From assembly GCA_001443495.1 (NCBI GenBank), contig LDXR01000006.1, forward strand, positions 1 through 64,000: DNA of 64,000 nucleotides, written 5' to 3'. Below the pieces are notes generated by a model, which worked only from the letters and a program-made list of their open reading frames with translations, made no database searches and had not been told where the DNA came from. The position numbers and the translations under genes were made by a program. Shown here one piece after another: positions 409-46,899 of this stretch. The first letter of the stretch is position 1. Each line of letters opens with the position of its first letter. The stretch is from a candidate division NC10 bacterium CSP1-5. Lineage in GTDB: Bacteria; Methylomirabilota; Methylomirabilia; Methylomirabilales; CSP1-5.

Positions 409-526
409 GCTAGAAGGCTAGTAGGCTGGGATGCTGGAACGCTCGGAGGCGCGCACCCTCGCCGGATCCGAGGACCATTTGTCTTCAGCATTGTAGCCTA
501 CTAGCGTCCAAGCCTTCCAGCCTTCT
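409..526. repeat. Phased 8-bp inverted array (AAGGCT-type)
   Basis: In the gap between the first two genes. In the left arm GCT ends at 411, 419, 427, 435 and 443, an exact 8-bp spacing. In the right arm AGC begins at 487, 495, 503, 511 and 519, again exactly 8 bp. The arms are approximate reverse complements (degenerate AAGGCTNG words against AGCCTTNN words) around a 43-bp spacer, so the locus could fold into a long imperfect cruciform or hairpin. The rest of the 347-613 gap shows nothing else. Confidence 0.85.
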
Positions 527-613
527 CGCCGCTATCAACGGACCGCTCCTCAGCCGGTGAGTATTGGCACAGAACGTGCACCACAAGTACCCCTGGGAAC
601 TTCGACAGTGGGT

Positions 614-1351
614 ATGAATCGCACACAAATTTCTCTCTCCGCCACAGAGGCGGCAGTTACCGGGTATCCCCCGGCAATCAGGCTGCTGACGGTCGGTTGC
701 CTCCTCGTCCTGGCGACAGCCTGCGCCGGCGGGCCTTCTGACGGAAACCTGCGCACCCTCGTCACGGACGAGGAGGAACGAGCCCAGAGCACAGAATTAG
801 AGCGGCGGGCCGCGCGGTTCAGGTGGAATCAGCAGGTGCGGCTCGAGCGGGTGCTCATGCGCGTCCTGCTGGCCGTGCCGGATCCGCCCCCCCTCAGCGC
901 CGAGGTGGCAGGGTGTGATGCGGTGAACGCCTACGTGGGCAAGCGCAAGATCCACGTCTGTCTCGGGATGCTCAGGTTCGTGAAGAGCGACGATGAGCTT
1001 GCGGTGGTCGTGGGCCACGAGCTCGGTCATCTCCCGACCTCCGCCAGTCACGGTCTGGTCGGGGGGGGCCGGCGAGAGGAGGAGCGAGCGGCCGACATTC
1101 GCGGACTGTTGTACGCGCATCGTGCCGGCTACGATATTCGGGCCGGGGCCAAGGTCTTCGAGCGGATGGCGGTCGAGCTGTCTCCCGGCCGGTGGGACAC
1201 GAAGCCGGGGGGGCATCCAAGCCACGCCGAGCGGGTGGTGATGGCCGCAAAGATCGCCCTGCTTCTCGGTCGGGGTGGCACCGAGGGGGATCTGGAGGCG
1301 TGGGTGAACCGGCTCCATCGACTGGTGGGCTCCTTCGACGATCTTCCCTAA
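614..1351 (+). CDS. M48-family metallopeptidase, probable lipoprotein
   Basis: Zinc-dependent endopeptidase. HELGH (residues 135-139, HExxH) supplies two zinc ligands and the catalytic Glu. The downstream EEERAAD segment fits the third ligand of M48 enzymes. The N-terminus has a hydrophobic stretch ending LATAC, a plausible though imperfect lipobox, so the protein is probably anchored in the envelope. At about 245 residues it is a minimal M48 domain without TPRs. The ATG at 614 is chosen; a GTG at 557 in the same frame would add 19 residues before the signal. Family members (BepA/LoiP-like) act in outer-membrane protein quality control; the substrate here is unknown. It stands alone, with repeat-rich gaps on both sides. 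Confidence 0.8.
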   Translation: MNRTQISLSATEAAVTGYPPAIRLLTVGCLLVLATACAGGPSDGNLRTLVTDEEERAQSTELERRAARFRWNQQVRLERVLMRVLLAVPDPPPLSAEVAGCDAVNAYVGKRKIHVCLGMLRFVKSDDELAVVVGHELGHLPTSASHGLVGGGRREEERAADIRGLLYAHRAGYDIRAGAKVFERMAVELSPGRWDTKPGGHPSHAERVVMAAKIALLLGRGGTEGDLEAWVNRLHRLVGSFDDLP

Positions 1352-1382
1352 CGAATCTCTCCTCGCTCTGCGGTATTTCAAA

Positions 1383-1405
1383 CTTCGGACATCGGACCTC
1401 CGGCC
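1383..1405. repeat. Short phased array, GGAC type
   Basis: GGAC words at 1387 and 1394 plus a degenerate unit follow the M48 gene. They match the word used at 1789-1813 and 4254-4277 and are the reverse complement of the GTCCGA word at 4201. Only two clear units are present, so alone this would be weak; the shared word and spacing make it credible. Confidence 0.5.
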
Positions 1406-1520
1406 AAAAGTTCGGGGGGACCTTCCTCGCTGCGCTTCGGCAACGGGTCCTGTCGCTCACCGTCTCGGGAGACATCCTTCGTAGACGGAAAATTCCATGG
1501 GTTGCTGATTCTATTACAAC

Positions 1521-1702
1521 AGCACGCTTGGCCCCTCGCTCCGGGCCTCCCGCGGCGACCCCAATCGGCGACTTACGGCCCGGGTCCCTCCGTGTTCACG
1601 CTCCGTGCAAGGAAGTCGGGCACGGATCGCGCCTCGGTTTCCCAGGCCGCCGCCTGCCGAGGGTCCCCGCCGCTCCCGGCAATGTCGCTCAGGGCCTGCA
1701 CG
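1521..1702. repeat. Interspersed ~180-bp repeat R1, copy 1
   Basis: Aligns along its whole length with 24541-24726 in the same orientation, with only small indels near the left end. The best-conserved core covers roughly 1600-1665. It fills most of the 1352-1909 gap between the M48 gene and the first PAP2 gene. Both copies happen to be open in one + frame, but their differences fall mainly at codon positions 1 and 2 of that frame, which argues against a conserved peptide. A structured RNA or a degenerate mobile repeat is more likely. No terminal inverted repeats or target duplications are obvious. Confidence 0.8.
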
Positions 1703-1788
1703 TGCTGCGTCCGTTGAACAAGCCGCAGAATAGGCGCCCAGGCGAGGAAGGGGTGGATCCTCTCCCCTTCCTCGCCCTTGGCGACACC

Positions 1789-1834
1789 GGACATTGGACG
1801 TCGGACTTCGGACCCTCTCGCGTGAACCCTGAAC
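1789..1834. repeat. Phased 7-bp array, GGAC words then GAAC words
   Basis: GGAC begins at 1789, 1796, 1803 and 1810 (exact 7-bp period). Two GAAC words follow with AA at 1825 and 1832, again 7 bp apart. Two different word families therefore sit side by side upstream of the first PAP2 gene. Confidence 0.75.
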
Positions 1835-1909
1835 CAATAAAGGGTTGGAGACCAGGAGGCGGTGTGGTAGCATACGGCGCTGTCATCTCCGAAGGGGGGC
1901 AGTGCGGCA

Positions 1910-2650
1910 GTGAAGCGAAGGACAATCCAGGTCTCTTCCTGGGGTACGGCGGCGCTTGTCCACCTTGTGGCCTACCTGTGCTTAGCCGCTCTCGTCAAAT
2001 TCAGCGCGCCCTTTTCCGTTGACCGTGCGGCCCGCGACTTCTTTCAGGGGATTCAGGACATCGCGGCGGGCTGGGTGATCAGGGGATGGGCGATCTTCGG
2101 GGACTGGCGGATCTTGACCGTGATGCTCATCCTGGCGAGTCTCGTTCTGTCCCGTGGGATCAAGAGAGATTTCCTCCTCTTTTTTCTCCTTGCCTTGGGG
2201 GGCGGAGGAGCTCTCGGGCAACTCTCCAAGGTCATGGTGGGCAGGCTGCGACCGGGGGATCCCCGGTTCGGGTTCCCGAGCGGGCACACCCTGGCTGCGA
2301 TGGTGACGGTGATCGGGCTCCTGTACTTCGCCTACCGGAGCGGGCTCTTGCGTCGCCCTCTGGGGGTGGCCGGCAGCGCGGCCGGCGGGGTGTTCATCGT
2401 GCTGGGGGTCGGTATCAGTCGCATGTATACAGACAGTCACTGGCTGACCGACGTGATCGGGGGGATCTTGCTCGGCGGGGCCGCGGCCGCGGGGACCGTC
2501 CTTGCCCTTGAGCGCCGCCAGGTCGTTCACGGTTCACAGTTCATGGTTCAGGGACCAGCAGCGGGGAACCCTGAATCACGATCCATGAACCCTGAACCAT
2601 CAACCATGAACCCCCAAGCATCAACCCTAAACCCTAAACGGCTCGACTGA
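1910..2650 (+). CDS. PAP2-superfamily membrane phosphatase with array-encoded tail
   Basis: Integral-membrane acid phosphatase of the PAP2/undecaprenyl-pyrophosphate phosphatase type. The three signature motifs are present: K107-P115 (KVMVGRLRP), PSGHT at 123-127 and the SR..H..D motif at about 170-181. Hydrophobic segments cover roughly 13-30, 68-80, 88-105, 128-142 and 155-170. The GTG start at 1910 follows a G-rich SD (about 1892-1899). Residues 205-246 are odd: they are encoded by a 7-bp-period repeat and read as a seven-residue repeat, each unit starting with Asn-Pro, after the last membrane segment. That tail is probably acquired, not functional. The likely substrate is a lipid diphosphate; specificity cannot be read from sequence. 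Confidence 0.85.
   Translation: MKRRTIQVSSWGTAALVHLVAYLCLAALVKFSAPFSVDRAARDFFQGIQDIAAGWVIRGWAIFGDWRILTVMLILASLVLSRGIKRDFLLFFLLALGGGGALGQLSKVMVGRLRPGDPRFGFPSGHTLAAMVTVIGLLYFAYRSGLLRRPLGVAGSAAGGVFIVLGVGISRMYTDSHWLTDVIGGILLGGAAAAGTVLALERRQVVHGSQFMVQGPAAGNPESRSMNPEPSTMNPQASTLNPKRLD
2524..2640. repeat. Phased 7-bp inverted array (GGTTCAN type) inside a coding 3' end
   Basis: Left arm: TTC at 2526, 2533, 2540 and 2547. Right arm: the AA of GAAC/TAAAC-like words falls on the same 7-bp register at 2567, 2574, 2588, 2595, 2602, 2609, 2616, 2623, 2630 and 2637, with one degenerate unit at 2581. The two arms are inverted relative to each other. The array lies wholly within the PAP2 reading frame and supplies its C-terminal residues and stop region. 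Two further units (AA at 2668 and 2675) lie across the start codon of the next gene. Confidence 0.9.
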
Positions 2651-2664
2651 GCTCGCCGAAGTCC
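2639..2664. repeat. 26-bp interspersed word, copy 1
   Basis: Identical to 61818-61843 except at one base (25 of 26). It begins CGGCTCGACTGAG and ends GCCGAAGTCC. This copy is wedged between the 7-bp array and the GT2 start codon and overlaps the PAP2 stop codon. The partly self-complementary GAGCTC core resembles short GC-rich words seen scattered in many bacterial genomes; no function is evident. Confidence 0.7.
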
Positions 2665-3639
2665 ATGAACCATGAACTTTCTCAATCCATCCCGCTCTCC
2701 CTGGTGATCCCCGTCCTCAACGAAGAGGGGAATCTGCGCCCCCTGGAGAGCGCGATCGGACAGGCGCTGGATCCTCTCGGCCTCGCCTACGAGGTGATCC
2801 TGGTGGACGACGGGAGCACCGACGGAACGCTCGCCGTCGCCCAGGCGATTCAAGCGGGGGATCCACGCTGGGTCATCGTCAGCCTGCGTCGGAACTTTGG
2901 TCAGACGGCCGCCCTCAGTGCCGGCTTCGACCATGCGCGGGGCGAAGTGATCGTGACGCTGGACGGGGACCTGCAGAACGATCCGGCGGATATCCCCACC
3001 CTCCTTGAGCTGGCCAAGGAGTACGATCTGGTGAGCGGCTGGCGGGTGGATCGGAAGGACCCCTTCTGGACTCGCCGTCTTCCCTCCAGGATTGCCAACT
3101 GGGTCATCTCGGCGGTGACAGGCGTGAGGCTCCATGATTACGGGTGTACCCTCAAGGCCTATCGGCGGGAGGTGGTGCGGAACCTGCGACTCTACGGCGA
3201 GATGCACCGTTTCATCCCGGCCGTGGCCAGTTGGATGGGGGTCTCGGTGACCGAGATCAAGGTCCGACATCACCCCAGGCGCATCGGCCGTTCGAAGTAC
3301 ACTCTCGGTCGAATCTTCCGGGTGCTTCTCGATCTGCTCACCGTCAAGTTCCTCCTCAGTTACTCCACCAAACCGATTCAGATCTTCGGCTTGTTGGGGC
3401 TCTTCTCCGGCGTGGCGGGAGGCCTCCTGGGCGTCTACCTCACCCTGCTCAAGCTGACCACGGGGCAAGCCATCGGCAACCGTCCCCTCCTCCTGCTCAG
3501 TGTCCTGCTGGTCATCTTGGGGGTCCAGCTCGTCATCCTGGGGCTCCTCGGCGAGCTTGTGGTCCGGATCTATTACGAGTCGCAGAGTAAGCCCACCTAT
3601 ACCATCCGTCACGTACTTCGCGGTCCGGGTGGGGAGTGA
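2665..3639 (+). CDS. Family 2 glycosyltransferase, polyprenyl-phosphate sugar synthase type
   Basis: Likely transfers a sugar from a nucleotide sugar to a polyprenyl phosphate at the inner face of the cytoplasmic membrane (ArnC/GtrB/DPM1-like). Residues 1-230 are a GT-A catalytic domain with VDDGSTD and the DxD-type DGDLQNDP. Two C-terminal membrane helices (about 232-255 and 270-297) are typical of this subgroup; 324 residues is the normal length. The ATG at 2665 and the first codons (MNHEL) lie in 7-bp repeat units, and no SD precedes it, so the start is uncertain, although the domain begins only about 10 residues later. PAP2 genes on both sides fit lipid-carrier recycling, by inference. 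Confidence 0.88.
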   Translation: MNHELSQSIPLSLVIPVLNEEGNLRPLESAIGQALDPLGLAYEVILVDDGSTDGTLAVAQAIQAGDPRWVIVSLRRNFGQTAALSAGFDHARGEVIVTLDGDLQNDPADIPTLLELAKEYDLVSGWRVDRKDPFWTRRLPSRIANWVISAVTGVRLHDYGCTLKAYRREVVRNLRLYGEMHRFIPAVASWMGVSVTEIKVRHHPRRIGRSKYTLGRIFRVLLDLLTVKFLLSYSTKPIQIFGLLGLFSGVAGGLLGVYLTLLKLTTGQAIGNRPLLLLSVLLVILGVQLVILGLLGELVVRIYYESQSKPTYTIRHVLRGPGGE

Positions 3640-3652
3640 GGCGATAGGCGGG

Positions 3653-4234
3653 ATGGCTGCCCTTGACCTCTTCCTCTTCCGGGCGATCAACAGGGATCTC
3701 AGTAATGCCCTCTTCGATCTCCTGATGCCGGCCATTACCGATCCCGAGCCCTTTCTCGTCCCGTTTGCGGGTGCGGGAATCGCGCTCCTCGTCTGGGGAG
3801 GCCGGAAGGGACGGCTCGCGGTCGTGACGGCCCTGGTGTTGCTCTTCGTGTCCAATGCGGCGAATGAACTGGTCAAGTTCTGGATCCAGCGGCCCCGTCC
3901 CTGTCAGGCCCTGGAGGCTGTCCGGCTCCTCGTCGGCTGCACTCACTCCCTCTCGTTTCCCTCGAGTCACGCCGCGAACATCACCGCTCAGGCCCTCCTT
4001 TTCGCCTCCCTCTATCGACCGTTGGCCTTCCCGCTCTTCCTGGTGGCTGCCCTGGTAGGATACTCGAGAGTCTATGTCGGGGTTCACTATCCCGCCGACG
4101 TGGCCGGCGGGGTCCTCGTGGGCCTGATCGCTGCTGCCGTCTTTATCCGCCTCGCGCGGGAAGTCGAGGGCCGCCTCGGCCTGCAGCAGAACAGCGAGAT
4201 GTCCGAGGTCCGAGGTCCGAAGTCCGAGGTCTAG
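3653..4234 (+). CDS. PAP2-superfamily membrane phosphatase (second)
   Basis: A 193-residue PAP2 protein with KFWIQRPRP, PSSHAAN and SRVYVGVHYPADVAGG as motifs 1-3. Hydrophobic helices flank the motifs, as in BcrC/YbjG/LpxE relatives. It probably removes phosphate from a lipid diphosphate at the periplasmic face. The ATG at 3653 lies 11 bp after the GT2 stop, so the two are probably cotranscribed. The last residues (about MSEVRGPKSEV) come from a GTCCGA-type 7-bp array that runs up to the TAG at 4232. This is the second PAP2 gene in the cluster whose 3' end is made of repeat. Distinguishing a carrier-lipid phosphatase from a lipid A phosphatase is not possible here. Confidence 0.85.
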   Translation: MAALDLFLFRAINRDLSNALFDLLMPAITDPEPFLVPFAGAGIALLVWGGRKGRLAVVTALVLLFVSNAANELVKFWIQRPRPCQALEAVRLLVGCTHSLSFPSSHAANITAQALLFASLYRPLAFPLFLVAALVGYSRVYVGVHYPADVAGGVLVGLIAAAVFIRLAREVEGRLGLQQNSEMSEVRGPKSEV

Positions 4235-4280
4235 TGCGCTGGTTCTTTCTCCAGACGTCGGACTTCGCACTTCGGACGTC
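4201..4280. repeat. Phased 7-bp inverted array (GTCCGAN type)
   Basis: Left arm: TCC at 4202, 4209, 4216 and 4223 with a decayed unit at 4230, all 7 bp apart, inside the end of the second PAP2 gene. Right arm: GAC at 4254, 4261 and 4275 with a degenerate unit at 4268, the inverted word in the same period. The spacer is about 20 bp. The same word family occurs at 1387, 1789 and 8915. Confidence 0.9.
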
Positions 4281-4380
4281 ATTGGAGTTGAACCCGACCA
4301 TCTCCTATGCTATCGTGGACGGCGTTCGCCCGCGCGGCCGTAAGGCTCCGTGGGCGGCGTCCCCTTCAGGAGCAGGCCCC

Positions 4381-8197: not shown

Positions 8198-8237
8198 GAT
8201 AGAGCGACATGCTGCGCATGGCCCATGAGAGCATAAG

Positions 8238-8914: not shown

Positions 8915-8940
8915 GTCCGAGGTCCTATGTCCGGCGTCCA
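8915..8940. repeat. Single-arm phased 7-bp array (GTCC type)
   Basis: TCC at 8916, 8923, 8930 and 8937, an exact 7-bp period, with the same GTCC word as 4201-4234. No inverted partner arm is visible. It ends 14 bp before the -35 box of the hrcA promoter. Confidence 0.75.
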
Positions 8941-8997: not shown

Positions 8998-9024
8998 TTA
9001 GCACTCATACGACGAGAGTGCTAA
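8998..9024. promoter_or_regulatory. CIRCE operator (HrcA binding site)
   Basis: An exact match to the CIRCE consensus: TTAGCACTC (8998-9006), a 9-bp spacer, GAGTGCTAA (9016-9024). HrcA bound here represses its own operon until heat stress titrates GroE away. This is the only CIRCE I see in the window. Confidence 0.97.
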
Positions 9025-9090: not shown

Positions 9091-10140
9091 ATGCGCGGCG
9101 CACCAGCTGAATTGACCGAAAGGCACCGAGACGTCCTGCGGGTGGTCATCCAGGATTATATTGCCAGCGCCGAGCCGGTTGGCTCTCGAAGTGTTGCCCG
9201 GAAATACGGGTTTCGCCTGAGTCCAGCCACGATCCGGAATGTCATGGCCGATTTGGCAGAGTGCGGCTATCTCGCCCAGCCCCATACCTCCGCGGGCAGG
9301 GTCCCGACCGATCAGGGATATCGAATCTACGTCGACAGCCTGATGGACCGACGCCCCCTCACCCGTGCGCAGGAAGGGATGATCGAGAAGCGGTTCTATC
9401 ACGTCCACGAGGAGGTGGGAGACCTGATGCGGGAGGCCACCAAGCTCCTCTCCGGCCTCTCGCGCTCGGTGGGCGTGGTCCTTGCACCGCGCGTGGACCA
9501 ATTGGCGATCAGACGGATCGAGTTTGTCCAGCAGTCGGCGGAACGGATCCTGGTCATCCTGGTCACCACGTCAGGACAGGTGCACCACAAGATGGTGGCC
9601 CTCGATGAGGCAATTCCCCAGGAAGAGTTGAACACAATGGCCCGGTTGCTCAATGCCATGGTGGAAGGGATGTCCCTTTCCCGGGTGCGGCAGCTGCTGG
9701 TCAAGAAGATGGCCGAGGAGAAGGCGATGTACGACGCACTCCTCCGCCAAGCACTGAAACTGGGCCAGAAGAGCTTTGCGGAAGAGACGGAGGGAGAGGT
9801 CTACATCGACGGGACCACCAACATCATGCATGAGCCGGAATTCGCCGATGTCGAGAAGATGCGAGCCATTTTTGTCGCCTTCGATGAGACGTCAAAGCTG
9901 GTCAGGATTCTCGATCAATGCTTGGGCCAGCAAGGGCTGAGCGTCATCATCGGCTCCGAAAACGTCCTCCGGGAATGGCAACGCCTCAGTCTGGTGATGG
10001 CCCCATACTATAGCGGGGAGCAGCTCCTGGGGACTCTCGGGGTGATTGGCCCGACCCGGATGGACTACGACAAGATCGTCCCCCTGGTGGACTTCACCGC
10101 CAGGCTGGTCAGCCGATCCCTGACCGAAGTGGCCTCGTAG
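9091..10140 (+). CDS. hrcA: Heat-inducible transcription repressor HrcA
   Basis: Repressor of class I heat-shock genes; it binds CIRCE and depends on GroEL for activity. The N-terminal winged helix (about 1-75) contains SAEPVGSR and the SPATIRNVMADL recognition region. A GAF-like dimerisation domain follows. At 349 residues it is the normal length. It is first in the operon, directly behind a perfect CIRCE and a strong promoter, so autoregulation is near certain. The ATG at 9091 opens directly into family sequence. Confidence 0.96.
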   Translation: MRGAPAELTERHRDVLRVVIQDYIASAEPVGSRSVARKYGFRLSPATIRNVMADLAECGYLAQPHTSAGRVPTDQGYRIYVDSLMDRRPLTRAQEGMIEKRFYHVHEEVGDLMREATKLLSGLSRSVGVVLAPRVDQLAIRRIEFVQQSAERILVILVTTSGQVHHKMVALDEAIPQEELNTMARLLNAMVEGMSLSRVRQLLVKKMAEEKAMYDALLRQALKLGQKSFAEETEGEVYIDGTTNIMHEPEFADVEKMRAIFVAFDETSKLVRILDQCLGQQGLSVIIGSENVLREWQRLSLVMAPYYSGEQLLGTLGVIGPTRMDYDKIVPLVDFTARLVSRSLTEVAS

Positions 10141-10215
10141 CATCGAGCCGGGATCTCGACGGCGGGAGGGTCCCCTCTCGCCTTTTGCCTTTCGGGGGAG
10201 GAGCAACGGCAGGAA

Positions 10216-14461: not shown

Positions 14462-15829
14462 ATGCCGTCCGAACGCCATGGGAGTGATGCCGTGAAGGAA
14501 GCGACCAAAGAGCAGAAAGAGACTAAAGAGGCCAAGGCGGTGCCCCGGGAGACGGCCAAGGACGCCCCCCGCGAGGGCCTCATGAACCTGGCCGAGTTGA
14601 CCGATAGGACCATCCCCGAACTGACCACCATTGCGCGCTCCGTGGGCCTGGTGGGCGCCAGCGCGCTCAGGAAGCAGGATCTCATCTTCAAGATCCTGGA
14701 GGCCCAGGCGGAAAAGAATGGGCTCATTTTCGCCGAGGGGGTCCTGGAGGTCCTCCCGGATGGTTTCGGCTTCCTCCGGGCGCCCAACTATAACTACCTT
14801 CCCGGGCCTGACGATATCTACGTCTCCCCGTCCCAGATCCGGCGCTTCGATCTCCGCACCGGCGATACGGTGTCGGGGCAGGTCCGACCGCCCAAGGAGG
14901 GGGAGCGGTATTTCGCCCTCCTCAAGGTGGAGGCGGTCAACTTTGAGAACCCCGAGGCGATCAAGGATAAGACCCTCTTCGATAACCTCACGCCCCTCTT
15001 CCCCAACGAGCGGTTCCGCCTGGAGACGACCGGGGATGAGATCAACATGCGGGTCATGGATCTGATCACGCCGATCGGGAAGGGGCAGCGGGGATTGATC
15101 GTGGCGCCGCCCCGGACCGGGAAGACGATCCTCCTGCAAAAGATTGCGAACAGTATCACCAAGAATCATCCGGAGGCATTCCTCATCGTCCTCCTCATCG
15201 ATGAACGCCCGGAGGAGGTGACCGACTTCCAGCGGTCGGTGAAGGCCGAGGTGATCAGCTCCACCTTCGACGAGCCGGCCAGCCGCCACGTGCAGGTGGC
15301 CGAGATGGTCCTGGAAAAGGCGAAGCGGCTCGTGGAGCACCGACGCGATGTGGTCATCCTCCTCGACTCGATCACCCGACTCGCCCGCGCGTATAACGCG
15401 GTCTGTCCGCCGAGCGGCAAGGTCCTCTCAGGCGGGGTCGATGCCAACGCGCTGCAGCGTCCCAAGCGTTTCTTTGGGGCGGCCCGGAACATCGAGGAGG
15501 GGGGGTCCCTCACCATCATCGCCACGGCCTTGGTCGATACCGGCAGCCGGATGGACGATGTGATCTTTGAGGAGTTCAAGGGGACCGGGAATATGGAGCT
15601 ACTTCTGGACCGCCGCTTGGTGGATAAGCGCATGTTCCCCGCCATCGACATCTTCCGGTCCGGGACCCGCAAGGAGGAGCTGCTCTTGACGCAGGAGGAG
15701 CTCAACCGGATGTGGGTGCTCCGGAAGGTCCTGGCCACCATGGGGGTGGTGGAGGCGATGGAGCTTCTGCAGGGGAAGCTCTCCGAGGCCAAGTCCAACG
15801 CGGACTTTCTCCGGTCCATGAATACCTAG
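14462..15829 (+). CDS. rho: Transcription termination factor Rho
   Basis: Hexameric RNA helicase/ATPase for factor-dependent termination. A Lys/Glu-rich N-terminal extension of about 40 residues precedes the Rho N-domain and the cold-shock-like RNA-binding fold ([10 protein letters not shown], about 98-107). Walker A is in APPRTGKT (about 219-226), followed by [12 protein letters not shown], the Q-loop/R-loop region and [13 protein letters not shown]. The 455-residue length reflects the extension. Its SD GAGAGGGGAG lies 8-12 bp before the ATG. A long leader precedes it and an intrinsic terminator follows directly. Confidence 0.97.
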
Positions 15830-22130: not shown

Positions 22131-22247
22131 GGTTCAGAGTTTATGGTTCATGGTTCATGAAAGTGCGTGGATCCAAAAAAACTTCCTTTCGTTTTGTGTC
22201 TTGGCTCTCACCTTCAACCCTGAACCCTGAACTATGAACCATGAACT
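22131..22247. repeat. Phased 7-bp inverted array (GGTTCAN type), hisB-hisH gap
   Basis: Left arm: units begin at 22131, 22138 (decayed), 22145 and 22152. Right arm: the AAC of TGAAC-like words falls at 22216, 22223, 22230, 22237 and 22244, exactly 7 bp apart. The arms are inverted around a 57-bp spacer with an A/T-rich middle. The right arm ends 3 bp before the hisH ATG, leaving no room for an SD. Confidence 0.9.
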
Positions 22248-22250
22248 AAC

Positions 22251-22895
22251 ATGATTGCCATCATCGACAGCGGGATCGCCAATCTGCGGAGCGTCGAGAA
22301 GGGATTCGAGAAGGTAGGGGTCCCTGCCCGCGTGGTCAGGGAGCCTCACCTGCTCCGGGACGCGGCAGGAATCGTGCTGCCGGGGGTGGGGGCGTTTGCC
22401 GACGGGGTCGCGACACTGGAGAAGACAGGATTCATCGATCCGCTGCTCCGGGAGATCGAATCCCGGAAGCCGATCCTCGGGATCTGTCTCGGTCTACACT
22501 TTCTCTTTTCGGAGAGTGAGGAGTTCGGCCTCCACAAGGGCCTTGATCTTGTCCGAGGCCGGGTGCGTCGCTTCCCCCATGTTGCTCAGTCCTCAGAGCT
22601 GAGTCCTCAGTCCTGGGTTTTGAAGGTGCCTCATATGGGGTGGAACCGGGTGCATCTGACCAGAGAGGCGCCGATCATGCAAGGGATCCCGGACGGCTCC
22701 TACTTTTACTTCGTGCACTCGTACTACGTGGAACCCGAAGATACAGGCGTCATCGCCGGCGTCACCGAATACGGGATCCCTTTCACCTCCATGATCTGGC
22801 GAGACAACCTCTTTGCCACCCAGTTTCATCCGGAAAAGAGCCAGGCCTTGGGCCTTCAGGTCCTTGCTAATTTTGGCCGACTGGTCGCCGGCTAG
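22251..22895 (+). CDS. hisH: Imidazole glycerol phosphate synthase, glutaminase subunit
   Basis: Class I glutamine amidotransferase that feeds ammonia to HisF. The nucleophile Cys79 is in GICLGLH, and the His-Glu pair is in QFHPEKSQ near the C-terminus. At 214 residues it is slightly long because an insertion of about 12-15 residues (around 110-123, HVAQSSELSPQS) splits the conserved RRFP...LKVPHMGWN stretch. That insertion is encoded by a 7-bp-period CTCAG array. The catalytic residues are intact, so the protein may still work if the loop is tolerated. No SD precedes the ATG; the upstream bases are repeat. Confidence 0.92.
   Translation: MIAIIDSGIANLRSVEKGFEKVGVPARVVREPHLLRDAAGIVLPGVGAFADGVATLEKTGFIDPLLREIESRKPILGICLGLHFLFSESEEFGLHKGLDLVRGRVRRFPHVAQSSELSPQSWVLKVPHMGWNRVHLTREAPIMQGIPDGSYFYFVHSYYVEPEDTGVIAGVTEYGIPFTSMIWRDNLFATQFHPEKSQALGLQVLANFGRLVAG
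22585..22617. repeat. Phased 7-bp array (CTCAGTC type) inside hisH
   Basis: CTCAG-like words begin at 22585, 22592, 22599 (CTGAG, the inverted word), 22606 and 22613 (decayed), an exact 7-bp period. The array is in frame with hisH and adds no stop codon. The word differs from that of the neighbouring intergenic arrays. Confidence 0.85.
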
Positions 22896-22897
22896 AG

Positions 22898-22964
22898 CTG
22901 TCGGCAGTCGGCTATCGGCGGTCAGCTTTTTTGGAGGAGTCCCGTGCTGACGGCTGACAGCTGT
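22898..22964. repeat. Phased 7-bp inverted array (GTCGGCN type), hisH-hisA gap
   Basis: Left arm: TCGGC-like words at 22901, 22908, 22915 and 22922. Right arm: GCTGA-like words at 22946, 22953 and 22960, the inverted word at the same 7-bp period. A run of six T (22927-22932) follows the left arm, so the left arm with its T-run may also act as a weak terminator. The array ends just before the hisA SD region. Confidence 0.85.
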
Positions 22965-22976
22965 GGAGCCATCGCC

Positions 22977-23714: not shown

Positions 23715-24529
23715 CGAAGCGGATCATCCCCTGCCTTGATGTCAAGGATGGCCGGGTGGTGAAGGGGACCAGGTTCGTGGACCTGAGAGACGCGGGCGAT
23801 CCAGCCGAGGTGGCTGAGCGGTACGATCGCGAGGGAGCCGACGAGCTGGTCTTCCTCGACATCACCGCATCGGCGGAGCGCCGCAAGATCCTGATCGGGG
23901 TCGTCGAGCAGACAGCCGAACGGGCCTTCACCCCTCTCACGGTCGGGGGCGGCATCCGGGATCTGAAGGACATCCGCGCCCTCCTCCTGGCCGGGGCGGA
24001 CAAGGTCTCTCTCAATACGGCGGCGGTAGAGAATCCGAGCCTCATCCGAGGGGCAGCGGAGCGATTCGGCAGTCAGTGCATCGTACTCGCCATCGACGCC
24101 AAACGCCGTCCGTTCAGGGTTCAGGGTTCAGGGTTCAGAGAAGGACCGAACCATGAACCATCCACCATGAACTCTGAACTGACCTGGGAGGTGTACATCC
24201 ACGGCGGTCGCACACCCACAGGTTTGGATGTGGTGGCCTGGGCAGAGCGGGGAGTGGCGTCGGGATCGGGGGAGATTCTCCTGACCAGCATGGACCGAGA
24301 TGGAACCCGCGACGGGTACGATCTAGAACTGACGCGCGCGGTCGCTAGGCGCGTCGGTGTACCCGTGATCGCCTCGGGGGGGGCCGGGACGATGGAGCAT
24401 CTGTACGAGGCCCTTGTCGAGGGGGGGGCCGATGCGGCCCTTGCCGCCTCTATCTTCCATTTCCGGGAGATTTCTATCGGTGAGGCCAAGGCGTACCTGA
24501 AGGGGCGTGGGATCCCCGTCCGCTTGTGA
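23708..24529 (+). CDS. hisF: Imidazole glycerol phosphate synthase, cyclase subunit, with in-frame repeat insertion
   Basis: Cyclase barrel that uses HisH-derived ammonia to make IGP and AICAR. The catalytic residues D11 ([10 protein letters not shown]) and D130 (LAIDAKRR) are both at the standard positions. Immediately after AKRR an extra run of about 25 residues (135-159) replaces the short loop that normally leads into WEVYxHGG; it is encoded by a 7-bp-period inverted array. The reading frame is kept and the rest of the barrel, including TSMDRDGT, is normal. The length is 273 residues against about 253 for typical HisF. The loop follows beta-strand 5 near the catalytic face, so an effect on activity is possible. 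The start is the ATG at 23708, overlapping the hisA stop. Confidence 0.95.
24112..24179. repeat. Phased 7-bp inverted array (GGTTCAN type) inside hisF
   Basis: Left arm: TTC at 24113, 24120, 24127 and 24134. Right arm: the AA of GAAC words at 24149, 24156, 24170 and 24177, with a decayed unit at 24163. Both arms keep an exact 7-bp period and are inverted around a spacer of about 10 bp. The array is fully within the hisF coding frame. Confidence 0.93.
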
Positions 24530-24540
24530 GAATGTGTTGG

Positions 24541-24726
24541 AGCAACGCCTTCGGCCTCTCGCTCCGGGCCTCTCGCGGCGACCCTGTTCGGCGGCTTACG
24601 GCCTGGGTCTCTCCGTGTTCACGATCCATGCAATGAACAGCGGCACGGATCGCGCCTCGGTTTCCCAGGCCGTCGCCAGCCGAGGGGCCCCGCCGCTTTC
24701 GTCCATGTCGCTCGGGGCCTGCAGGC
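24541..24726. repeat. Interspersed ~180-bp repeat R1, copy 2
   Basis: Same-orientation homologue of 1521-1702. The core from about 24617 to 24690 is nearly identical. It fills the hisF-hisIE gap and is followed by a T-rich stretch (24730-24742) and then a short GAAC array. As for copy 1, no transposase or terminal repeats are visible. The 24530-24775 gap contains nothing else. Confidence 0.8.
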
Positions 24727-24754
24727 GCTCTTCTTTTTGTTAGTTCGCGTCATC

Positions 24755-24774
24755 GAACCGTGAACTGTGAACCA
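24755..24774. repeat. Short phased 7-bp array (GAAC type) at the hisIE start
   Basis: AA of GAAC words at 24756, 24763 and 24770, exactly 7 bp apart, all in the form (C/G)GTGAAC. The third unit contains a GTG (24767) in frame with hisIE. It is the same word as the hisB-hisH and hisF arrays. Confidence 0.75.
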
Positions 24775-24775
24775 C

Positions 24776-32343: not shown

Positions 32344-32352
32344 CGTGGAGGG

Positions 32353-32414
32353 GTTCACAGTTCACGGCTCAGAGTTCACGCTGATCGACAGGTTTTCCCT
32401 GTGAACCGTGAACT
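32353..32414. repeat. Phased 7-bp inverted array (GGTTCAN type), rpoD-tRNA gap
   Basis: Left arm: TTC at 32354, 32361 and 32375, with a decayed unit at 32368. Right arm: AA of GTGAAC words at 32404 and 32411. The two arms are inverted around a 22-bp spacer. The right arm ends 6 bp before the tRNA. Confidence 0.85.
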
Positions 32415-32496: not shown

Positions 32497-32500
32497 TATC

Positions 32501-32607
32501 CAGTGCAGAGTGCAGAATGCAGAAAGGTGCAGAGTTGTGCGAAGGAGGGTGGTGGGCACTGCGCTGGATGGCCCCGAAGCGTGAACTGTGAACGGTGAAC
32601 CGTGAAC
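32501..32607. repeat. Two phased arrays after the tRNA (GCAGAGT and GTGAAC words)
   Basis: TGC of GTGCAGA words at 32504, 32511 and 32518 (7 bp), then further copies at wider steps (32528, 32538). A short inverted GCACTGCGCTGG segment lies at about 32556-32567. Then the AA of GTGAAC words at 32584, 32591, 32598 and 32605, exactly 7 bp apart. The last array ends 12 bp before the next gene start. Confidence 0.8.
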
Positions 32608-32618
32608 CGAGGGGGGAT

Positions 32619-39325: not shown

Positions 39326-39337
39326 GGTGGCAGGCCC

Positions 39338-40653: not shown

Positions 40654-40672
40654 GGAAAGTGACCTCCCTCCC

Positions 40673-40701: not shown

Positions 40702-40777
40702 TTTATCGTAAAGCCTGCCTGCGGGAAGAGGAGGGGAGATCCTTTTGCCGTTGCCAGTCATCGGGAGGGGCGCGAAC

Positions 40778-41890: not shown

Positions 41891-41926
41891 ATACGGCCCA
41901 GAGATCTGGTGGGACACTCCCCGCCG

Positions 41927-42235
41927 TCACTCGAGGCCTTTGAGCGTTTCCTGATATTCCTCCGCCATACCCGGATGGTCGAATCGCCGCGCGGCCCGTA
42001 TCCCCGCCTCGTAGGCCTGGCGTGCCTCTGCCATCCGGCCGAGCGTGGTCAGGGCCTGGGCTAACGTCCGGTAGGCTGCCCCCTCGTCTTCCGCCAAGCT
42101 CAGATACGTCTCCATGGCCTGGACACATTCCCGATACTGTCCGGCGTTGAAATACTCATTCCCGAGCATGTAGTAGAGCAAGGCATCTCCGGGATCCTCT
42201 TGAATCATCGCTTGCAAGGCCTTCAGGCGACTCAT
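41927..42235 (-). CDS. Small TPR-like protein
   Basis: 102 residues on the minus strand, composed of about two and a half tetratricopeptide-like helix pairs (ALLYYMLGNEYFNAGQY..., AAYRTLAQALTTLGRMAEA). No signal peptide. The ATG at 42235 has AAAGGGGAGC upstream; the frame stays open further but without an SD. TPRs mediate protein contacts; partner unknown. It converges with the M48 protease gene and diverges from the zinc-ribbon peptide. Confidence 0.78.
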   Translation of the reverse strand: MSRLKALQAMIQEDPGDALLYYMLGNEYFNAGQYRECVQAMETYLSLAEDEGAAYRTLAQALTTLGRMAEARQAYEAGIRAARRFDHPGMAEEYQETLKGLE

Positions 42236-42434
42236 AGATGCTCCCCTTTCCGCGAATATCCTCCATGCGCCCGCCGCCTGCTCCACCCCGGACCGGACCG
42301 CCTGGGCTATGGTAGACCGGATCGCCCCCCGAAGGAAGAGGCGGCTCCTCCTGCATGGGCACGGTCACCAGAAAGCCCTCGCCGCTGTATGGCTCGACAA
42401 TTGCAAAGTGGAGAGACTGGAGACGAATGAGGCG

Positions 42435-42569
42435 ATGGCGAAGCAGGATATCCGGTTCTGTCCGTTCTGTTCCGTGATGCAGTTCGACATGGCAGAGGTG
42501 GGGGCCAGCGTCCACTGCGAGGTGTGCGGTATCGAGGTGGCAGCGGAGGAGCTGGTCGAGACCGTCTAA
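42435..42569 (+). CDS. 44-residue zinc-ribbon peptide
   Basis: Reads MAKQDIRFCPFCSVMQFD... with a second CEVC knuckle, a two-CxxC zinc ribbon. The ATG at 42435 is chosen as the residue set from MAKQD onward is the coherent part; the frame is open to 42309. No family assigned. Its TAA stop is the first three bases of the 139-bp repeat element that follows. Confidence 0.6.
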   Translation: MAKQDIRFCPFCSVMQFDMAEVGASVHCEVCGIEVAAEELVETV

Positions 42570-42705
42570 AGCAAACGCACAAAGTGCGTTTACTTTGGAG
42601 CAATGGAGCAGTGGAACAATAGAGTGATGTTGGAGGCGCAATGCCCCATTGCGGTCTAATGTTCTATTGCTCGATTGTCACAAGATGAAATGCGTTTGTA
42701 TTAGT
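42567..42705. repeat. 139-bp phased element, copy 1
   Basis: Begins at the TAA of the zinc-ribbon peptide with an imperfect hairpin (TAAAGCAAACGCAC / GTGCGTTTACTTTG). Then come four 8-bp units at 42597, 42605, 42613 and 42621 (GGAGCAAT, GGAGCAGT, GGAACAAT, AGAGTGAT). An inverted arm has ATTG/AATG words at 42640, 42648, 42658, 42666 and 42674, mostly 8 bp apart. The right end TGCGTTTGTA mirrors the left AAACGCA. It aligns without gaps to 46761-46899, same orientation. Confidence 0.93.
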
Positions 42706-42743
42706 TGGAACGGGGGATCGGGTGTCCTCCGCCGTGCATTCGC

Positions 42744-42779
42744 AAGAAAAAGAATGGCCCCGCCGGAGCGGGGCCATTC
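42744..42779 (-). terminator. Intrinsic terminator of the cold-shock gene
   Basis: A perfect 12-bp stem, GAATGGCCCCGC (42752-42763) with GCGGGGCCATTC (42768-42779), loop CGGA; on the minus strand it is followed by TTTTTCTT (42751-42744). It lies 18 bp beyond the csp stop codon. Confidence 0.93.
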
Positions 42780-42796
42780 CAAGGAAAACGAGGCAA

Positions 42797-43006
42797 CTAC
42801 ACCTTGGTCACATTGGCGGCCTGCTTGCCCTTGGGGCCGTCGACGATGTCGAATTCCACAGTCTGGCCTTCTGTGAGTGATCGGAACCCGCTCCCGGCAA
42901 TGGCACTGTAGTGGACGAAGACGTCATCGCCGTCGGAACGCTCAATGAAGCCGTACCCCTTGGCGTCATTGAACCACTTCACCTTGCCCGTTACGCGCAC
43001 CTCCAT
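42797..43006 (-). CDS. Cold-shock protein (CspA family)
   Basis: 69-residue single cold-shock domain that binds single-stranded RNA/DNA. RNP1 KGYGFIE and RNP2 DVFVHY are intact, with the family signature [14 protein letters not shown]. Members act as RNA chaperones and antiterminators. It is transcribed on the minus strand from a leader of about 215 nt that contains a terminator-like hairpin, and it ends at a strong terminator. GGAGGG precedes the ATG at 43006. Paralogue identity (CspA/B/D) cannot be assigned. Confidence 0.95.
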
Positions 43007-43068
43007 CCCTCCTTTCCCTCCGAGATTCCAGGCGTGGCAGCCCTGCGTCGCGCAAGGGCGCCAGGGCA

Positions 43069-43106
43069 GAAAAAAACCGCGAGGGTCCTGGATCTTCCCC
43101 CGCGGT
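43069..43106 (-). terminator. Terminator-like hairpin in the csp leader
   Basis: On the minus strand, ACCGCGGGGG (43106-43097) pairs with CCCTCGCGGT (43085-43076) with one A-C mismatch, followed by seven T (43076-43070). It lies about 65 bp upstream of the csp ATG and downstream of the proposed promoter, so full csp transcription would have to pass it. Confidence 0.75.
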
Positions 43107-43223
43107 CAGGCGAATCGAGGTGACAAGCCAGACCGAGACGAATGGTGCTGCAGTCAATAGACCACCGATGTCGAGCGATGTCGAGCAACGTTCCAGGTCC
43201 CTGTCCTGCGAAAAACAGGCGGA

Positions 43224-43252
43224 AATCTACGGAATTTCCCGCATGCTGTCAA
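43224..43252 (-). promoter_or_regulatory. Promoter of the cold-shock gene
   Basis: Minus strand: TTGACA (43252-43247), 17-bp spacer, TAGATT (43229-43224). It is the same pair of hexamers as the rpsU promoter. It gives a leader of about 215 nt. Confidence 0.68.
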
Positions 43253-43274
43253 GTCTTTTTTCATGCGACTCGTA

Positions 43275-43303
43275 TTGACTTTCGTAGATCGGTCCGTTAG
43301 TCT
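43275..43303 (+). promoter_or_regulatory. Possible promoter of galU
   Basis: TTGACT (43275-43280), 17-bp spacer, TAGTCT (43298-43303). The -10 is weak. It diverges from the csp promoter across about 25 bp. Confidence 0.4.
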
Positions 43304-43355
43304 TTGATTTTGTATCGGTGACGAAGGCACGATCGTCGAGAAGAAAGGGGAAGTC

Positions 43356-44279
43356 ATGAAGGTCCGCAAGGCGGTGTTTCCGGTCGCGGGCCTCGGGACC
43401 CGATTCCTGCCGGCCACGAAGGCGCAGCCCAAAGAGATGCTCCCTATCGTCGATAAGCCGGCGATCCAATACGCGGTCGAGGAGGCGCTGGCGGCCGGCA
43501 TCGAGACCATCATCATGGTCACCGGCCGGGGGAAGGATGCTATTGAGAATCACTTTGACCGCTCGGTGGAGCTTGAGCAGGTCCTGGGGGCCCAGGGAAA
43601 GGCGGACCTCCTCCGCGAGGTGCAACGGATCCCGGAGCTCGCCGCGTTCTGTTACATCCGCCAGAAGGCACCGCTCGGTCTCGGCCACGCCGTGCTGGTG
43701 ACGAAGGACCTGGTCGGCGAGGAGCCCTTTGCCGTCCTGCTCGCGGATGACCTGATCGATGCTCGGGTCCCGGGCATTCAGCAGATCCTCGAGGTCTTCG
43801 ACCGGTATCGCGCCTCCGTGCTGGCCGTGTCTCCCGTCTCTCGCGAGGAGCTGAACAGCTACGGGATCATTGCCGGGCGGGAGGTCGCAGCCGGGGTCTA
43901 CCAGGTGACCGATCTCGTGGAGAAGCCCGCTCCCCAGGACGCCCCCTCCAACTTGGGCATCGTGGGGCGCTATGTGCTTACCCCGCAGATCTTTGAAGCG
44001 CTCGAGCAGACGCCGTCCGATGCGCGGGGAGAAGTCCAACTGACCCACGCCCTCAAGGGGCTCTTGCGGCGCCAGAAGGTGTATGCGGTCGAGCTCAAGG
44101 GTCGGCGGTACGATACAGGGAGCAAGTTGGGGTTTCTGCAGGCCACGGTGGAGTTGGCACTCAAGCGGTCGGACATCGGAGAGGCCTTTCGGGCGTATCT
44201 CAGAGGGTTGAAATTGGCCCCAGGGGCTCGGAGGCCAGTGGTCGACAGGGCGAGGCGGACCGCACAGAAAAAGCGGTAG
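43356..44279 (+). CDS. galU: UTP-glucose-1-phosphate uridylyltransferase
   Basis: Makes UDP-glucose from glucose-1-phosphate and UTP, the precursor for LPS core, capsule and glycogen-type sugars. The N-terminal AVFPVAGLGTRFLPATKA holds the nucleotide-binding loop; KEMLPIVDKPAIQYAVEEA and FAVLLADDLID are family signatures. At 307 residues it is normal; the last 25 residues are basic and variable. The ATG at 43356 has AAAGGGG upstream. lon follows after 21 bp. Confidence 0.95.
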   Translation: MKVRKAVFPVAGLGTRFLPATKAQPKEMLPIVDKPAIQYAVEEALAAGIETIIMVTGRGKDAIENHFDRSVELEQVLGAQGKADLLREVQRIPELAAFCYIRQKAPLGLGHAVLVTKDLVGEEPFAVLLADDLIDARVPGIQQILEVFDRYRASVLAVSPVSREELNSYGIIAGREVAAGVYQVTDLVEKPAPQDAPSNLGIVGRYVLTPQIFEALEQTPSDARGEVQLTHALKGLLRRQKVYAVELKGRRYDTGSKLGFLQATVELALKRSDIGEAFRAYLRGLKLAPGARRPVVDRARRTAQKKR

Positions 44280-44303
44280 ACGCCGAAGCGGGAGGTCGCG
44301 TTG

Positions 44304-46763
44304 GTGAAACGCATCAAAGAGAGCAAGGGCGTGGCGGACATAGCAGCCGAGGGGCAGGGGTTGGTGGGGTCGGAGCGGAAGATACCCGAGACGGTCCCCG
44401 TGCTTCCGGTGCGGGACATGGTGGTGTATCCATTTATGATCCTCCCCCTCTACGTGGGGCGGGAGAAGTCCATTCGGGCGGTCGAGGGGGCCCTGAGTCG
44501 GGATCGTCTCATCCTCCTGGTGGCCCAGAAGGATGCCGAGGTGGAGGATCCCAATTCCCAGGAGATCTATCCGGTCGGCACGGTCACCATGATCATGCGG
44601 GTCCTTAAGATGCCCGATGGTCGGGTGAAGATCCTCGTCCAGGGGCTTGCCCGGACCAGGATCCTGGAGTTCCTTCGGAAGGAACCGTACTTTGAGGCCC
44701 GGATTGCGGAAATCCTCGATGATGAGGTGCCGACGATGGGGGTGGAACTGGAGGCGCTGATCCGCACCGTCAAGGAGCAGGTCTCGCGCAGCGCCTCTGT
44801 GGGCAAGCAGATATCTCCCGACATCCTGGTGATTATCAATAACCTGGACCACCCCGGACGGCTCGCTGATCTGGTCGCCTCGCATCTGGACCTCAAGGTG
44901 GAACAGGCGGTGGAGATTCTCGAGATCACCAGTCCGGAGGAGCGCCTGCGGCGGATCAGCGACTTCCTCCGGAAGGAGATCGAACTCCTGGAGGTGCAAC
45001 AGCGCATCCAGAGCCAGGCCAAGGAGGAGATAGATAAGACGCAGCGGGAGTACTATCTCCGGGAGCAGCTCCGGGCCATTCAGAAGGAGTTGGGGGAAAC
45101 CGACGAGCGGCAGCAAGAGATCGACGAGTTCTCGGCGAAGATCGAGAAGGCCAAAATGCCCTCCCCGGTCGCCGCAGAGGCCAAGACGCAACTGAATCGC
45201 CTCGCGCGGATGCATCCGGATGCCGCAGAGGCGTCTGTGGTTCGGACGTACCTCGAGTGGCTCATCGAGCTGCCCTGGAGCAAGCAGACGCGGGATAAGA
45301 TCGATATCGAGCGGGCGCGGAAGATCCTGGACGAGGACCACTACAACCTGGAGAAGGTCAAGGAGCGGATCCTGGAGTACCTGGCGGTCCGCAAGCTTAA
45401 GAAAAATAAGATGAAGGGTCCCATCCTCTGCTTTGTGGGGCCGCCGGGGGTCGGCAAGACCTCTCTGGGGCGCTCCATCGCCCGGGCGCTCGGCCGGAAG
45501 TTCGTGCGGATTTCGCTCGGCGGGGTCCGGGATGAGGCGGAGATCCGGGGCCACCGGCGGACATACATTGGGGCCCTCCCCGGCAAGATCGTTCAGGGGA
45601 TCAAGACCGCCGGGACCAACAACCCCGTCTTCATGATGGATGAGGTCGATAAGGTCGGGGCGGACTTCCGGGGCGATCCTTCGGCGGCTCTGCTCGAGGT
45701 GCTGGATCCGGAACAGAATGTGGCCTTCACCGACCATTACCTGGGGGTGGCCTTCGACCTCTCGAAGGTCATGTTCATTACGACGGCCAACATGGCTGAC
45801 CCGATCCTTCCCGCCCTGAAGGATCGCATGGAGACCATCGAGATCTCCGGATACACGGAGGAGGAGAAGCTCCACATTGCCCGACGGTATCTCATTCCGC
45901 GGCAGCTCAAGGAGCACGGGATCACCGAGGGGCAACTGCAGCTCACGGACGAAGGCGTGCTCAAGATCATCCGGGGCTACACGCGGGAGGCGGGACTCAG
46001 GAATCTGGAGCGGGAGATTGCCACCGTCTGTCGGAAGGTGGCCAAAGAGGTGGCTGCGGGGAGGACGGAACCCTTCCGGGTGACCGCCCAGAATCTCCAT
46101 CGATTCTTGAAGGCCCCCCGGTATCTCCCCGAGCCCGAGCAGGAACAGGATGAGGTGGGTGTCGGGACGGGCCTCGCCTGGACCCAGGCTGGCGGGGACA
46201 TCATGTACGTCGAGGCGACGGTGATGAAGGGAAAGGGCCAACTCTTGCTGACGGGGCATCTGGGTGAGGTGATGAAGGAATCGGCCCAGGCGGCCTTGAG
46301 CTACGCCAGGGCTCGCGCCCCGGAGCTCAGGGTCAAGGAGGACCTGTTCTCCAAGGTGGATATCCATATCCACGTGCCTGCGGGGGCCATCCCGAAGGAC
46401 GGACCCTCGGCCGGGATCACCATGGCGACCGCACTGATCTCCGCCCTGACCCGGGTTGCGGTCAAGAGGAGCGTGGCCATGACGGGCGAGGTGACATTGC
46501 GGGGGAAGGTCTTGCCGGTCGGCGGGGTCAAGGAGAAGGTTCTGGCTGCCCGCCGGGGCGGCATCACCACCGTGCTCCTCCCGCAGAAGAACGACAAGGA
46601 TGTCAAGGAGCTGCCCAAGACGATCCGCCGCGGGATGCACTTTGTCTTTGTGGAGCACATGGATCAGGTCCTCGCGGCGGCCCTGGTCAGGCCGGTCAAG
46701 GAGAAAGGCCAGGTCGGGATCGCCGCGGCGAAACGGCCGACCCCGGCCATGACGGTCCACTAA
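44304..46763 (+). CDS. lon: ATP-dependent protease Lon
   Basis: Hexameric AAA+ serine protease that degrades misfolded and regulatory proteins. The N-terminal LON substrate domain (about 30-220), AAA+ with Walker A GPPGVGKTSLG (about 378-388) and the proteolytic domain are all present. The Ser-Lys dyad is visible: Ser in DGPSAGITMA (about 703) and Lys in GGVKEKVLAA (about 746). At 819 residues it is normal. GTG at 44304 is preferred (GGGAGG 8 bp upstream); TTG at 44301 is adjacent. Its TAA stop is the first base triplet of the second 139-bp element. Confidence 0.97.
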   Translation: MKRIKESKGVADIAAEGQGLVGSERKIPETVPVLPVRDMVVYPFMILPLYVGREKSIRAVEGALSRDRLILLVAQKDAEVEDPNSQEIYPVGTVTMIMRVLKMPDGRVKILVQGLARTRILEFLRKEPYFEARIAEILDDEVPTMGVELEALIRTVKEQVSRSASVGKQISPDILVIINNLDHPGRLADLVASHLDLKVEQAVEILEITSPEERLRRISDFLRKEIELLEVQQRIQSQAKEEIDKTQREYYLREQLRAIQKELGETDERQQEIDEFSAKIEKAKMPSPVAAEAKTQLNRLARMHPDAAEASVVRTYLEWLIELPWSKQTRDKIDIERARKILDEDHYNLEKVKERILEYLAVRKLKKNKMKGPILCFVGPPGVGKTSLGRSIARALGRKFVRISLGGVRDEAEIRGHRRTYIGALPGKIVQGIKTAGTNNPVFMMDEVDKVGADFRGDPSAALLEVLDPEQNVAFTDHYLGVAFDLSKVMFITTANMADPILPALKDRMETIEISGYTEEEKLHIARRYLIPRQLKEHGITEGQLQLTDEGVLKIIRGYTREAGLRNLEREIATVCRKVAKEVAAGRTEPFRVTAQNLHRFLKAPRYLPEPEQEQDEVGVGTGLAWTQAGGDIMYVEATVMKGKGQLLLTGHLGEVMKESAQAALSYARARAPELRVKEDLFSKVDIHIHVPAGAIPKDGPSAGITMATALISALTRVAVKRSVAMTGEVTLRGKVLPVGGVKEKVLAARRGGITTVLLPQKNDKDVKELPKTIRRGMHFVFVEHMDQVLAAALVRPVKEKGQVGIAAAKRPTPAMTVH

Positions 46764-46899
46764 AGTAAACGCACTACGTGCGTTTACTTTAGAGCAATGG
46801 AGCAGTGGAACAATAGAGCAATTGTGTAGGCGAAATGCCCCATTGCGGTCTAATGGTCTAATGCTCCATTGTCACAAGATGAAATGCGTTTGTAATAGT
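46761..46899. repeat. 139-bp phased element, copy 2
   Basis: Begins at the TAA of lon with a perfect 14-bp inverted repeat (TAAAGTAAACGCAC, loop TAC, GTGCGTTTACTTTA). 8-bp units start at 46791, 46799, 46807 and 46815; the inverted arm has AATG/ATTG at 46834, 46842, 46852, 46860 and 46868. All landmarks are at the same offsets as in 42567-42705. The stop codon of lon is therefore inside the element's hairpin. Confidence 0.93.

Follow-up and report, generated by a model that had tools for sequence, protein, structure and literature searches.

The short tandemly repeated repetitive (STRR) sequences of cyanobacteria are mainly direct arrays, and the palindromic elements of Rickettsia are inserted in frame in protein genes. 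Here we analyze degenerate words that recur at a 7- or 8-bp step and are set as inverted arms in the candidate division NC10 bacterium CSP1-5, a member of the phylum Methylomirabilota (assembly GCA_001443495.1), starting from a stretch of 64,000 nucleotides (contig C6, LDXR01000006.1, positions 1-64000), here called the window. These arrays are confirmed as a real class, and comparison with sister genomes shows that array sites are inherited while the word that they carry is often replaced. The explanation that we favor, with about even confidence, is that the arrays are families of fold-back hairpin cassettes, copied as units and displacing one another at recurrent sites.

In Geobacter metallireducens, three classes of 7- or 8-mer arrays paired on opposite strands, described together with GGACCGG elements, were named "global regulator binding sites," the binding of an IHF- or HU-like protein being the authors' hypothesis; that description also gives an insertion sequence at a fixed distance from class-1 sites and a different multicopy sequence of a sister species in the proB-proA gap (PMC2700814). 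The likeness comprises tandem 7- or 8-nt units, opposite-strand pairs at variable distance (36 of 52 arrays here), several words per genome, and some intragenic copies, and the ATTGCTCC octamer of the source genome is similar to GTTGCTYN, the unit of class 1. Unlike here, the Geobacter arrays are described by consensus only, and word replacement in sisters, nesting, polarity, and cassette histories are unreported in the accessible part (PMC2700814).

In Xanthomonas, convergent inverted pairs of the heptamer GGGAATC number 70 to 75 per genome (PMC4692102). These too are intergenic heptamer arrays in inverted pairs, but they use one G-rich word per genome, are read as a G-quadruplex, and mostly keep their position between species. 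In the P6b element of the Nostoc tRNA-Leu intron, degenerate heptamers base-pair and two word classes occur at one site (PMC3488679); base-pairing arms, copy-number changes, and inserted elements are shared with the arrays described here, and the difference is that P6b is a single locus within a group I intron. Degenerate tandem heptamers whose arms base-pair where paired are found here as in cyanobacterial repeats. The Beggiatoaceae TAACTGA repeats are likewise intergenic heptamer arrays with a patchy distribution over several phyla, but direct and not inverted, and that paper cites a proposal that the 7 nt reflect polymerase contact (PMC4679880). Rickettsia palindromic elements resemble the arrays in being long dispersed stem-loops and differ in being conserved sequences of 105 to 146 bp without heptad arms (PMC2229807). 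The Geobacter, Xanthomonas, and Nostoc cases contradict the initial annotation of the window, according to which no known parallel has an inverted layout with several words. What is apparently new relative to the searchable literature is word replacement at inherited sites in close relatives and discordance between cassette and flanks within an enzyme gene, along with nesting and a polarity that goes by family.

Period, pairing, and words of the arrays

Arrays in the window were called as lag segments with at least 16 of 21 matches, against order-2 Markov simulations. A further 400 kb from other stretches of the 2.77-Mb genome brought the survey to 464 kb, in which coding and non-coding DNA were assigned by an ad hoc gene finder and shuffles served as the null. 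The window contains 11 lag-7 and 3 lag-8 segments (0.0 and 0.2 in simulations). The 464 kb hold 41 non-coding lag-7 and 12 non-coding lag-8 arrays, each against a shuffle expectation of 0.0, together with 16 arrays at the harmonic lag 14 and 0 or 1 array at each of lags 2 to 6 and 9 to 13. Given this near absence of arrays at other short lags, the period is highly specific. This bears out the strict 7- and 8-bp periods of the initial annotation, whose named arrays are all present and read as described.

An inverted partner lies within 200 bp of 36 of the 52 strong arrays, a threshold reached by 2% of random non-coding flanks, and 7 of the 52 have a direct partner. About 30% are single-armed, among them those at 1789 and 32501 (GCAGAGT), and the short array at 8915 is likewise single. 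With all words pooled, adjacent arrays give an inverted match of 11.5 versus 6.8 (standard deviation, 0.94) for shuffled partners. This agrees with the claim that the word is shared within a locus and differs between loci, and across words the observation stands: the periods exceed the shuffle rate, and arms are more alike within loci than between them. Spacers between paired arms range in length from 0 to more than 100. At least nine words are in use, namely, the 7-mers GGTTCAN (the commonest), GTCAGCN/GTCGGCN, GTCCGAN, ACCGATG, CTCAGTC, CAGACC/GAGACN, GTGATTR, and GCAGAGT and the octamers GGAGCAAT and AGGACGCT. The loci of the window are listed below with their fold z scores or other basis; strand is given where assigned, and G005 is one of the six congeners compared further on.

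408-530: inverted 8-mer arrays of the AAGGCTAG / GGACGCTA type around a spacer (lag-8 scan and hairpin list; z -4.65)
1377-1405: array of the GTCCGA family (z 0.25, no better a fold than in shuffles)
1783-1813: single arm of the GTCCGA family, without inverted partner (lag scan)
2523-2640: GGTTCA hairpin reaching into the 3' end of a phosphatase-like open reading frame at 1910-2650 (z -2.39)
4196-4280: GTCCGA hairpin; two sisters have the same word and a third a GGTTCA type (z -5.59)
8915-8937: short single-armed GTCCGA array directly upstream of a CIRCE operator, present in 6 of 6 sisters (sister comparison)
22131-22249: GGTTCA hairpin directly upstream of hisH; the two closest sisters have GTCAGC here and two more have ACCGATG (z -4.79)
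22576-22629, plus strand: heptamer array within the hisH coding sequence, constant at 54 bp, with a word that varies by species (sister comparison)
22893-22970: GTCGGC/GTCAGC hairpin between hisH and hisA; in G005, a GAGAC hairpin is nested within the old arms (z -3.56)
24104-24184, plus strand: in-frame GGTTCA hairpin of 27 codons in hisF, flanked by AIDAK and WEVY (sequence and sister comparison)
24751-24775: short remnant array, TGAACCG/TGAACTG (sequence)
32351-32413: GGTTCA hairpin 5' of tRNA-Met; G005 has GTCAGC arms around a GAGAC hairpin there (sister comparison)
32497-32531: GCAGAGT array 3' of tRNA-Met; sisters carry GGTTCA (lag scan and sister comparison)
32573-32613: TGAACNG array (lag scan and sister comparison)
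42566-42705, plus strand: dispersed element of about 139 bp whose ends are fixed and whose inverted arms repeat the GGAGCAAT octamer (z -6.59)
46760-46899, plus strand: second copy of the GGAGCAAT element of about 139 bp (sequence copies)

Not all loci are non-coding, because the array at 22585 lies in hisH and that at 24112 in hisF. The CIRCE operator next to the array at 8915 is perfect (TTAGCACTC-N9-GAGTGCTAA, 8998-9024) and lies upstream of a gene starting at 9091; a palindrome downstream of it, GATCGGGGCTAACCCCGATC, is multiplied in G005. The window also carries, at 1514-1708 and 24535-24732, a dispersed repeat of about 190 bp with dozens of matches in sister genomes at 84 to 94% identity.

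Folding of the loci showed that RNA folds are more stable than those of shuffled sequences at most of them (z -2.3 to -6.6), with no gain at 1387 and just -1.7 at 22585. Such strong folds are what would be expected of structured RNA, that is, of intercistronic hairpins that stabilize or terminate transcripts, where the structure is selected and the word is free; the persistence of sites under a change of word would also be expected if only the hairpin matters. We give this explanation little credence. At the gathering score of Rfam, the only match in the window is tRNA-Met, and the arrays match no known RNA family. The array upstream of groES is single-armed in all species, and the hisF cassette of two sisters (G001 and G002) joins two non-complementary words. 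Tandem, convergent, and divergent gaps carry arrays equally often (22, 23, and 20%), with no enrichment of arrays after convergent genes, and a role as 3' untranslated regions or terminators was set aside on this absence of bias toward convergent gaps.

Array sites and their words in sister genomes

The comparison covered the orthologous gaps of six congeners, with identities of about 95 to 96% for G005, about 91% for G002, and about 75 to 80% for the others; most of the compared genomes are metagenome assemblies. In raw counts, comparisons at array sites show an array in the sister as well in 22 of 28 cases, and those at other gaps in 8 of 58. On inspection by hand, 10140-10215 proved to be a false-positive array site, and all 8 off-site arrays came from two gaps with subthreshold arrays here; the corrected counts are 21 of 22 at array sites and 0 of 47 elsewhere. 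Array sites thus persist, and the words are often swapped. Relative to G005, the word is swapped at 4 of 8 sites (upstream of hisH, between hisH and hisA, and on both sides of tRNA-Met), with the flanks unchanged up to a few bases. New hairpins often lie nested within the arms of another word, as in G005 at tRNA-Met (GTCAGC outer, GAGAC inner), in G006 after hisF (GGTTCA outer, GTCAGC inner), and in G002 before hisH.

G003 and G006 share 97% identity over about 20 kb. All indels of at least 4 bp within aligned blocks fall at array sites, and one of them, in a GTCCGA array, measures exactly +14; an insertion of about 196 bp in G006 relative to G003_C122 falls between aligned blocks, outside the indel count. 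In G002, GTCCGAA units are homogenized.

These comparisons bear on the proposal made for Geobacter metallireducens, by which the arrays might be sites of global DNA-binding proteins, with each word the recognition unit of one protein and the paired sites serving looping or bending. That report reads an identical architecture in this way (PMC2700814), and arrayed protein binding would fit the fixed period and polarity. Here we regard it as highly improbable, given that words are swapped at the same site between species that are about 95% identical, that arrays lie inside the hisH and hisF coding sequences, and that the three gap types carry arrays equally often.

The array region of hisH keeps its 54 bp throughout, with a species-dependent word. 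In hisF, the insert between AIDAK and WEVY spans 27 to 36 codons and is mostly absent from solved HisF proteins. Its cassette types, GGTTCA in G000, G005, and G003, GTCCAGA plus CTCAGCC in G002 and G001, and GTCCGA-like in G004 and G006, conflict with the relationships of the flanks. Between G000 and G002, the flanks are 91 to 93% identical and the loop 47%, and between G003 and G006, the values are 97 to 98% and 57%. Between G001 and G002, in contrast, the flanks are 76 to 83% identical and the loop 88%. Because these two genomes agree better in the cassette than in the flanks, exchange at the hisF site is likelier than inheritance, with assembly chimerism as a residual worry.

Arms, loops, and polarity within families

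According to the initial annotation, arrays are regenerated on both strands, each from its own unit. In such a process, 7-nt slippage and fold-back copying of quasi-palindromes would produce both arms from the local unit, independently at each locus. Steps of whole units do occur, as in the +14 indel and the homogenized GTCCGAA units above, and fold-back template switching is known to homogenize inverted arms and to alter coding sequence (PMC8604942). However, in the GGTTCA family (18 pairs), arms match their own partner no better than arms of other loci (15.1 versus 15.7; P = 0.86), and no arm-to-arm homogenization was seen. In the ACCGA family, left arms read ACCGACG and right arms ACCGATG, and this difference is kept at 17 loci. 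Arm-to-arm copying would erase it and is therefore unsupported. Entire words are, moreover, swapped at 3 to 5% divergence with unchanged flanks, and each family shows a single polarity within a genome, where independent origins should yield both orientations. Regeneration in place is thus weakened, and we consider it unlikely; the earlier interpretation as a whole is partly supported.

The loop of the ACCGA hairpin (GGAAA..CTTTTTGTTCC) is conserved over the same 17 loci, which are an ascertained set, having been retrieved by a search with one full hairpin. Full-length copies, loop included, occur with 72 to 100% identity at unlinked loci of several congeneric genomes, so that unit-wise copying of one family is directly observed.

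Pairs in the source genome point inward in 28 cases and outward in 0, and across 35 genomes, GGTTCA shows the inward pattern and never the outward. Among the near GTCAGC pairs listed for an acidobacterial genome (G075), every one has the opposite polarity. This rules out polarity as a property intrinsic to the word and indicates that it is inherited by the family. G075 has about 199 GTCAGC triple-unit matches (L259-L269). Some of its stems continue unbroken from the array into unique sequence, with 70-nt arms that are 94% complementary; fold-back copying may therefore act in this genome, a point in favor of regeneration in place.

The GGAGCAAT element is about 139 bp long and has about 20 copies in the source genome. 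Its ends are constant (CTAAAGTAAACGCAC... ...AAATGCGTTTGTA(T/A)TAG), with the fixed termini CTAAAG...TAG. Because of these ends and the copy number, it is probably a conventional dispersed element of the miniature inverted-repeat transposable element (MITE) type. Relative to the window, G005 has insertions at 8198-8220 and 15826-15829 (L103) that are bounded by CTAG, end in CTAGTGCCGTTCCAAC...GTTGGAACGGCACTAG, and are MITE-like; similar ends occur near 42700 and 46900.

The octamer element and the dispersal of palindromic units are the points of contact with hairpins built of repetitive extragenic palindromes (REP), known as REPINs, and with MITEs, whose movement depends on a transposase acting in trans (RAYT/TnpA or that of an insertion sequence). 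For the arrays in general, such an origin is very unlikely, as fixed ends were not seen in the 7-mer elements and the numbers of Y1 transposases (PF01797) do not follow the arrays. This transposase was not found in the array-rich congeners G001 (92% complete) and G004 (68% complete), and G000 has one. It was accordingly rejected as the mobilizer, with the limit that both congener genomes are incomplete. The GTAG/CGTC tag of 20- to 40-bp REPs was not noticed in the hairpin lists, no systematic scan for it having been made.

Replacement driven by SbcCD cleavage of hairpins and subsequent gap repair was considered and dropped: SbcD (TIGR00619) is undetected in the source genome and over the cut-off in 1 of 35 order-level relatives (G000-G034), versus 8 of 14 control genomes. 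An absence of SbcCD from a whole lineage would be out of the ordinary. It may be permissive in letting hairpins survive; array-poor relatives are also without SbcCD, so that its lack does not separate array-rich from array-poor genomes.

Proposed hairpin cassettes at recurrent sites

In the cassette explanation that we favor, each family is defined by its word, 7 nt long or in some cases 8, which runs head to tail through both of its inverted, non-coding arms with fixed polarity. Units of arm, loop, and arm would be copied into a limited number of recurrent sites, some of them gaps between genes and at least two of them surface loops of proteins, where one family would often replace another or nest within it, and arm units would be gained or lost by slippage in steps of 7. 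Directly observed among these are both periods, the pairing of inverted arms, the word families and their fixed polarity, copies of one family as units at unlinked loci, sites that persist under replaced words, indels in steps of 7, nesting, and the in-frame arrays of hisH and hisF. As the copying process we favor replication template switching or strand exchange at stalled hairpins over a dedicated transposase, and the elements may be essentially selfish or neutral. Since relatives bear hairpins of other words in the same neighborhoods, even inside two enzyme genes, the arrays appear to be interchangeable, probably selfish cassettes rather than gene-specific switches.

Several observations weigh against this explanation. 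The loops of GGTTCA and GTCAGC hairpins are mostly unrelated from locus to locus, and unit-wise copying is therefore directly shown only for the ACCGA family and the octamer element. The hairpin lists gave no fixed ends for the 7-mer elements, target-site duplication is not evident at pairwise breakpoints, none of which offered a clean empty site, and no mobilizing enzyme was identified for the arrays. The G002-type hisF cassette occurs at full length only in hisF of G002 and G001; it was rejected as an intragenomic transposant, and it looks more like the exchange of alleles at a single site than free transposition. Because most of the compared genomes are metagenome assemblies, chimerism at repeats may also account for some of the differences between sisters.

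The inverted GGTTCA pattern was found in at least 120 stretches of public genomes, whose record titles name Planctomycetota, Deltaproteobacteria, Acidobacteria, Chloroflexota, Bacteroidota, Elusimicrobia, Gamma- and Betaproteobacteria, and others. Taken over 80 of these loci, the lag spectrum has its peak at 7 once more, for which ascertainment is partly responsible. GTCAGC arrays are present in just 4 of 32 genomes of several phyla with GGTTCA hairpins, which rules out a universal lexicon of words. A more far-reaching proposal, which we hold to be doubtful, is that of an element without protein that spans phyla and is defined not by sequence but by its architecture, with inverted heptad arms in which the word is free. 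Species would exchange it as an exact cassette at homologous sites, loops of core enzymes among them, through a hairpin-driven copying process so far undescribed.

So far, heptamer arrays have entered the literature one case at a time, as regulator sites, as G-quadruplexes, or as typing markers. Across the sister genomes, they behave as a single class of interchangeable hairpin cassettes, which in the regions compared dominate structural change between close relatives and rewrite surface loops of conserved enzymes. Reading them as one class would account for the scattered literature and would caution against interpretation as gene-specific regulators. The arrays also offer a natural system for asking why the permitted steps are 7 and 8 nt.

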